Assembly: GCA_943788055.1 (NCBI GenBank)
Contig: CALSOU010000004.1
Span: forward strand, 248,001 to 312,000
Direction: 5' to 3'
DNA from: an uncultured Saprospiraceae bacterium
Lineage (GTDB): Bacteria; Bacteroidota; Bacteroidia; Chitinophagales; Saprospiraceae
Length of the DNA: 64,000 nt
Below are positions 42,194 to 43,133 of the stretch, piece by piece (position 1 is the stretch's first letter; every line of letters starts with the position of its first letter). A model generated the notes under the pieces. That model ran no database searches. It was not told the DNA's origin and worked only from the letters and a program-made list of their open reading frames with translations. A program made the translations under genes and the position numbers.

Positions 42194-42930
42194 TCAATCA
42201 AAATTCCGTCGAATTGTCTTGAGTATCCATTTTTCGAATGCCAATCCTAGGAAGTCGTATTGTTCGATATACTTAGTTGCTTTGCTAGAGTACTGGTTTT
42301 TCTCTTCATGAAATGACTTACTACTCAAAAGCTCAGGATTTCTTAGTAGTTTTCCTTTTTGATCATGAAATTTGGGATTAGCTTGGTATTTCTTATTGGG
42401 TTGATCAAGGCGAACTTCCCGATTTCTAATTTTTCTAATGTATTTTCTAGCTTCTTCAATTAAGCTAAATTGATATTTTTGAAATACTTTTTTGAAGCAT
42501 TTCCCTCTCGTCCTCTCATAGGGTTTGTGATATTTGTGAAACGAGATATCAGTATCTTGATTGCTTCGCTAATAATCAGATTCACAGAGTTGAGTACTCG
42601 TTTTGGCCTTTTGATCTTCCGTTTCAATTGATTGAAATATGAAGTTTTGATTTTGTATTCAGATTTAGTTTTGACAATTAGTTGCGAGCCAGTAGGTTTT
42701 ATTACATACTCTAGAATTGACATGTACTCTCCTAATCGTCTATTGATGAGGTTTAAGAATATTCTAACTTCTTTAGGATGTTCGATGAAATGCCTGTTTG
42801 CTGTGCAAAGGCCTTGTAATAGATATATACTATTGTCTTCCATTTGTTTAATCTTAATCATAATAGTCTCTTTAACTTTTAGTGAATTAGCTTTTACTAT
42901 TAGTGTATTGAGTTGGAGTTTTATTCCCAC
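42194..42930 (-). pseudogene. RAYT-like (Y1/HUH transposase-related) gene with frameshift
   Basis: The minus strand has a 156-codon frame (42930 to 42460) that stops shortly after GNASKKYF. Adding one A to the AAAAA run just past that point opens a second frame for about 95 more codons to a TGA at 42194, giving a continuous basic protein of about 250 residues ending in IEQYDFLGLAFEKWILKTI. The segment EYVIKPTGSQLIVKTKS resembles the region where REP-associated tyrosine transposases carry the HUH motif (VIMPNHVHLIV), but the histidines are absent. Family assignment is an inference from this pattern and from the REP-like repeat next to it. It is probably inactive as sequenced. Confidence 0.5.
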
Positions 42931-43057
42931 TTATTGAGTAGGAATTTGAAAATAATTTGTTCCTGACCTATGCTTGATTACTTCAAGAAGACTAGAAATT
43001 GTGTATTCAGAGGAACTGACTGAATATGCTAGAATGGAATCTTGTATTGACGATGCC

Positions 43058-43133
43058 TCGCGTCAGCGATAGAAGCGGGTTCCAACGAACGTCAGTGAGG
43101 AAGGATATGAGCGGATAGCGCGCTGGGACGCCC
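43058..43133 (-). repeat. GC-rich REP-like element, copy 1
   Basis: A stretch far richer in GC than its surroundings starts with CTCGCGTCAGC and ends with GGGACGCCC. Read on the minus strand it shares the opening GGGCrTCC, the inner GCGCT/CCG block, a GTTGGA segment and the closing GCTGACGCrAG, in the same order, with the element at 47862-47953. It lies about 130 bp upstream of the RAYT-like gene. Confidence 0.5.

Follow-up and report, generated by a model that had tools for sequence, protein, structure and literature searches.

The feature under study lies on the minus strand of the window, by which is meant the whole stretch of 64,000 nucleotides that was analysed (G000:C4:248001-312000, in a genome of 3.0 Mb and 13 contigs). 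It consists of an open reading frame of 156 codons (42930..42460), as reported in the preliminary description, followed by an overlapping open frame of 99 codons (42493..42194, stop codon at 42194-42196). The two halves align, one after the other, with a single intact protein of the same genome, a paralogue of 232 amino acids without frame break (L002, G000:C9:306380-307075), with E 2e-22 and 36% identity on 129 amino acids for the N-terminal half and E 5e-10 and 28% identity on 95 amino acids for the C-terminal half, so the continuation in the second frame is not due to chance. The start codon is probably the ATG at 42861 rather than the GTG at 42930, since resemblance to the paralogue sets in at this codon and the GTG falls inside a predicted promoter (42895-42932); the N-terminal frame would thus be reduced to 133 codons (42463..42861, stop codon at 42460..42462). 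Its product is an HUH-less, RAYT-derived protein with a Y1-transposase core (b-a-b-b-a-a-b), and the C-terminal part (42194..42493) is another frame of the same gene.

The break falls in an A-rich zone (42476..42493). It had been placed at a run of five A read as six, and the open second half and its match to the paralogue bear out the continuation, but the run concerned is uncertain: the frame overlap contains two A-runs (A6 at 42488-42493 and A5 at 42476-42480), and the paralogue alignment fits a change in either. The paralogue and the other relatives read through the break and none of them ends at the stop codon of the window gene, which agrees with the earlier view that the frame was recently intact. 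The window copy is a frameshifted member of its family, by mutation or by assembly error. Newly recognised here are its probable start at an ATG, its competence promoter, the unbroken paralogue and the existence of a many-copy family among congeners.

Assembly error, which would leave the gene intact in the living cell, is a serious possibility falling somewhat short of even odds, because the single PF00719 pyrophosphatase that was recovered from the genome (45370-45760, plus strand, 3 kb away) is split into two frames as well, one break lying at a T7 run, and is carried intact by two congeners. The position of the break within A-runs, the presence of a single lesion in about 225 codons and the good preservation of the promoter point the same way; against this, the pyrophosphatase also has no recognisable first 37 residues, which resembles real decay, and 44 ORFs of at least 150 amino acids in the window are unbroken. 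This explanation concerns the break only and is compatible with the reading of the family preferred below. Programmed or leaky -1 frameshifting, yielding a full-length product besides the short one, appears quite improbable. The sequence A AAA AAG (42487-42493), which we take to be a classic -1 slippery heptamer as in dnaX and IS3-type elements, sits in the N-terminal frame, and the frame reached by the shift aligns with the paralogue, but the predicted folding of the RNA downstream of the heptamer scarcely exceeded that of shuffled sequences (z -0.95, -1.63 and -1.06), no unusual stimulatory structure being found there, and the shift is not conserved, the paralogue and relatives being single-frame.

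Both histidines of the HUH motif are gone from the window protein (G-S-Q at this site), as had been noticed, and the suspected kinship with the HUH segment of REP-associated transposases was upheld by profile alignment and by structural matches. A search against Y1_Tnp/RAYT profiles had been proposed as a check; it succeeded for the family profile (hhalign) and not for single members, for which Pfam gave no Y1_Tnp match. Pfam and NCBIfam contain no model for the family, and the family profile found no match when searched against PDB sequences. The weak matches obtained in other genomes are RAYT-like proteins, 24 of the 25 loci fetched carrying HFH and one (L064) AFH. A comparison set (A4) was built from 21 of these 25 loci, L049, L056, L064 and L066 being excluded for odd length or truncation. 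Profile A1 matched HUH proteins among genomes of the taxonomic family with a best E of 9e-17, for a protein (L045) which itself matches Pfam Y1_Tnp above cut-off. The hhalign comparison of 29 HUH-less proteins with 21 HUH RAYT-like proteins gave a probability of 98.6 and E 1.3e-15, with no gap across the HUH segment, where N-H-F-H is aligned with x-G-[WYF]-x in the family.

The structural model of the window protein (133 amino acids, pLDDT 81) had Y1 transposases exclusively (IS200/IS605, RAYT) among its best 15 matches (Z 10.1-7.8). For the AlphaFold model of a family member (L178; pLDDT 78, pTM 0.79, with pLDDT below 50 for residues 162-189 and a poorly modelled C-terminal third), the best PDB match was 4ER8, a complex of the RAYT TnpAREP with a REP hairpin (Z 9.4, rmsd 3.9, 138 aligned residues; Foldseek E 4.6e-3). 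A likeness to Thg1 (Z about 6) was no better than general fold matches. Membership of an unrelated family was rejected: Pfam, NCBIfam and PADLOC gave nothing above chance, PHROGs gave weak matches of unknown function, and profile and fold both lead to Y1 transposases.

The motif [ND]HuH was present in 0 of 57 family ORFs and in 21 of 21 proteins of the comparison set, which supports the earlier suggestion of a non-catalytic relative and extends it to the whole family. The position of the first histidine is occupied by G in 56 of the 57 ORFs; the second is still H in 2 of 25 members and in the paralogue (GRH), so that its loss is not universal. Y...NP occurs in two of the 57 ORFs, both times inside the C-terminal tail. 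The family thus derives from RAYT / Y1 (HUH) transposases, of which it has kept the fold and lost the HUH and Y---NP motifs. With RAYT / TnpAREP proteins, which form class 2 of TnpAY1 with the Bacteroidetes in subclass 2.6 according to the accessible part of one survey (PMC6006769), it shares the Y1 fold and a homologous core that includes GRxG and the strand-helix pattern of the N-terminus; it differs from them by the absence of both motifs, few flanking REP-type palindromes, many copies and a competence promoter. The resemblance to the TnpA of IS200/IS605 elements (IS608, ISDra2) lies in the fold of the N-terminal core, whereas the family has no HUH and the palindrome count shows no terminal hairpins. 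Perfect stems of at least 11 within 250 nt were found at 2 of 30 HUH-less genes, compared with 13 of 21 HUH genes, and an association of the family with REPs was rejected on this count; at the window gene, the longest flanking stems are 7 upstream and 6 downstream.

Using the paralogue as query, 22 family matches were obtained in each of two congeners (G001 and G002) and one in a third (G003, a genome 51% complete); with the paralogue and the window gene in the own genome, all four genomes of the genus are positive. When 150 genomes belonging to the taxonomic family were searched, 35 yielded a match at E 1e-5 and five a strong match (E <1e-28), namely G000, G001, G002, G007 (nine copies, another genus) and G110 (one copy). 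At class level (395 genomes), a strong match was found in the own genome only, and a match in G246 (2e-14) corresponds to an HUH protein. The related loci recovered all come from Saprospiraceae MAGs (MAG-195, MAG-37, MAG-38 and IP30a_bin.4), and the family has so far been seen in Saprospiraceae genomes only. In a FastTree phylogeny, the HUH-less sequences (31 of 31, including the N-terminal half of the window gene and the paralogue) form a single clade with a support of 1.0 on a long branch, inside which genome-wise sub-clades are found; long-branch effects are possible in this tree.

The copies of the congeners and of G007 have intact reading frames, and strong purifying selection is apparent in the 36 pairs formed by the nine G007 copies (pN 0.12-0.28 against pS 0.66-0.98). 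An ordinary dead transposase pseudogene of no wider meaning, as the frameshift and missing histidines of the window gene might suggest, is therefore rejected as very improbable: a whole family without the histidines is intact and under selection, the intact paralogue and congeners largely contradict this reading, and the window gene retains a regulon promoter. The G001 contigs C8, C57, C58, C60, C127, C148, C149, C164, C185, C197, C227 and C263 terminate at or within near-identical family genes, so that the true copy number of G001 exceeds the assembled one. In G002, an intact copy is immediately preceded on its upstream side by a truncated duplicate that has a promoter to itself (L014 / L040, G002:C79:3712-4807).

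The regions upstream of the copies share an element GGAAC-N15-TTACACTAAT, the exact core of which precedes 43 of the 57 family ORFs, nearly always 22-72 nt ahead of the aligned domain start. A position weight matrix (PWM) was derived from these 43 sites (41 distinct), chosen for the exact core; the 14 ORFs outside it are the nine of G007, which have another promoter, two cut by contig ends, and L028, L039 and L042, where the core is inexact. Over the window, the best of 127,924 positions was 42895-42932 on the minus strand with 19.9 bits, the runner-up scoring -0.3. The predicted competence-regulon promoter (GGAAT ... TACACTAAT, 42898..42927, minus strand), about 35 bp ahead of the ATG at 42861, was also recovered as a pattern match with 3 mismatches (G000:C4:290898-290927). 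A promoter picked by eye further upstream of the gene proved wrong, the PWM locating it at 42895-42932.

In the own genome, 12 exact TTACACTAATM sites were found, seven of them with GG[AG]AC at -19/-20, and these seven precede the genes for ComM, ComEC, RadC, SSB, the paralogue, DUF2851 and a 3'-5' exonuclease. Both boxes are exact (GGGACA-N13-TTACACTAATA) at five sites, ahead of ComM, ComEC, RadC, the paralogue and the exonuclease, which is of DNA_pol_B_exo2 type; for SSB and DUF2851 the first box is 20 nt away instead of 19. PWM scores of the own com sites were 19.3 for ComEC, 4.4 for ComM and 4.5 for RadC. As the raw counts in this genome are not clearly above those of a reversed-pattern control (6 vs 7, 12 vs 7, and 11 vs 13, at looser settings), the case here rests on the second box and on the identity of the downstream genes. 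In the congeners the counts exceed the control (35 vs 11 in G001, 28 vs 9 in G002). Thirty of the 35 G001 sites stand before family genes or at contig ends, including those of C8, C57 and C185, where the contig is cut ahead of the start codon; three precede com genes and two (C246 and C250) are chance-like. The com genes under this promoter are DUF2851, ComM and RadC in G001, and SSB, ComEC, RadC and DUF2851 in G002, their identities being based on Pfam for L102, L107 and L121 and on the reading of translations for the rest. The promoter sequence is common to the family and to ComEC, ComM, SSB and RadC, and the set of genes that it precedes is predicted to be a natural-competence regulon.

In G007, a different promoter (about GGATATTTT-N4-GTTCRNGACACTTA) stands ahead of nine of the nine family copies. 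The 14 pattern matches in this genome (control 9) comprise seven family genes, one ComM, one DUF2851, four chance-like sites and L170 (G007:C58:41082), a full variant promoter with no ORF of at least 60 amino acids within 300 nt, perhaps belonging to an RNA or to a lost gene. In a third genus (G082), 11 exact TTACACTAATM sites were counted (control 12), five of which have GTAAC at exactly -19; they precede RadC, ComEC, ComM, a sigma-like gene and an HUH-bearing RAYT with a hairpin, and DUF2851 has the second box only.

This RAYT (L059 / L220, G082:C33:544800-545312) is the one with a competence promoter in front among the 21 HUH RAYTs examined. It resembles the family by its Y1 type and its competence promoter and has a RAYT-type hairpin, but has kept HFH and Y---N, and may picture a stage before the loss of the histidines. 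The sigma-like gene (L222, G082:C33:685324; Sigma70_r4_2 0.011, Sigma70_r2 0.031), situated directly under the promoter, is a candidate for a self-activating competence sigma factor, to be taken as a lead only; in the own genome, the search for the competence sigma factor did not single one out, the homologue there having no clear promoter.

Further upstream lies an inverted repeat that approximates CATATTAAA-N-TTTAATATG, with its centre 105-120 nt (in most cases 109-111) ahead of the TACACTAAT box. In G001 it was found at 25 of 30 promoters of family genes and at 3 of 3 of com genes; in G002 the corresponding figures are 8 of 22 and 2 of 4, and the single G110 copy has it too. Among shuffled controls of family promoters, 6 of 150 (G001) and 5 of 110 (G002) had it in the same range. 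In G002, the motif TGTCA occurs at 136-140 nt in 13 of 22 promoters of family genes and in 3 of 4 of com genes; in G001 it occurs in 0 of 30 family promoters. In the own genome, neither the inverted repeat nor TGTCA was found at the seven com sites or at the window gene, and the repeat was not found at the paralogue (0 of 1).

Competence proteins of Flavobacteriaceae include DprA, ComEC, RecA, Ssb, ComM and RadC (accessible part of PMC7965970). The four of these six that were examined (ComEC, ComM, SSB and RadC) are under the promoter here, and the regulon differs from such Bacteroidota sets by the addition of RAYT-derived genes and DUF2851. Within the open-access journal literature searched, no work was found that connects RAYTs to competence or reports a RAYT family devoid of HUH, nor a promoter or regulator for this Bacteroidota competence set; in the accessible text of PMC3686654, RAYTs and competence are mentioned separately only. 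The analysis supplies a promoter for the predicted Saprospiraceae competence regulon and puts DUF2851 in it. The DUF2851 genes (L127:3010-4335, L123, L100 and L175) have the competence promoter in G000, G001 and G002 and its variant in G007, which makes DUF2851 a candidate competence protein; the one paper retrieved on it deals, in its accessible part, with salt tolerance.

Taken together, we consider the family as RAYT-derived, non-cleaving proteins that probably bind nucleic acids and were recruited to the natural-competence regulon (probability of about 0.6). An alternative sigma factor, to be expected from the ECF-like, two-box promoter, would switch on the family with ComEC, ComM, RadC and SSB, joined in the congeners by an upstream activator. 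TnpAREP processes single-stranded REPs, according to the accessible part of PMC8266576. ComEC delivers single strands, and the family proteins would attach to this single-stranded or hairpin DNA in the way RAYTs bind single-stranded REP hairpins, yet without cutting it, and the incoming strands would thereby be protected, selected or handed over. Proteins made with ComEC and unable to cut would most simply be binders of imported single strands. For the window copy, this role would be off or reduced through the frameshift, with occasional slippage possible.

A simple housekeeping role does not account for the growth to 20-30 copies, which counts against this explanation; for the amplification two readings remain, sequence-specific diversification and selfish spread. 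According to the latter, the genes would be RAYT-type relics or spreading copies which captured a competence promoter and spread by DNA uptake and recombination, with no host use. The lineage-specific expansions in the tree, the near-identical subset at G001 contig ends, the partial tandem duplicate in G002:C79 and the scattering of copies across contigs all fit such passengers. We nevertheless judge them unlikely, given the missing HUH and Y---NP motifs, the rarity of REP-type palindromes, the strong purifying selection, the gradual divergence of the flanks of near-identical copies, in which no sharp element end was seen, and a promoter which tracks real com genes even where its sequence changes.

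The binding of imported strands by recruited proteins can tentatively be extended to a fuller, somewhat unlikely picture in which RAYT-derived proteins are a working part of Saprospiraceae transformation. Cleaving RAYTs would have joined the regulon (as in G082), lost HUH and diversified, so that each genome would carry about 10-30 non-cleaving paralogues with different single-stranded DNA signatures to read; together these would form a sequence-reading filter by which incoming strands are sorted, guided or shielded. As to the benefit of RAYTs to their hosts, this family offers a testable answer, namely that its proteins work on imported single-stranded DNA. In the accessible part of the TnpAY1 survey (PMC6006769), missing core motifs are taken to suggest non-functional proteins and only proteins with both motifs were kept; the present family suggests that sequences set aside in this way may form a living family.

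Two minor observations concern other loci. Outside the family, the RAYT-like protein L064 (G150:C120) has its first HUH histidine changed (NAFH), perhaps by an independent loss. Near the window gene, an element of roughly 75 bp (43057-43129, plus strand), unsupported as a cognate REP, has five more copies in the genome and weakly resembles the Flavo-1 RNA (17.3 bits, where the gathering score is 42).
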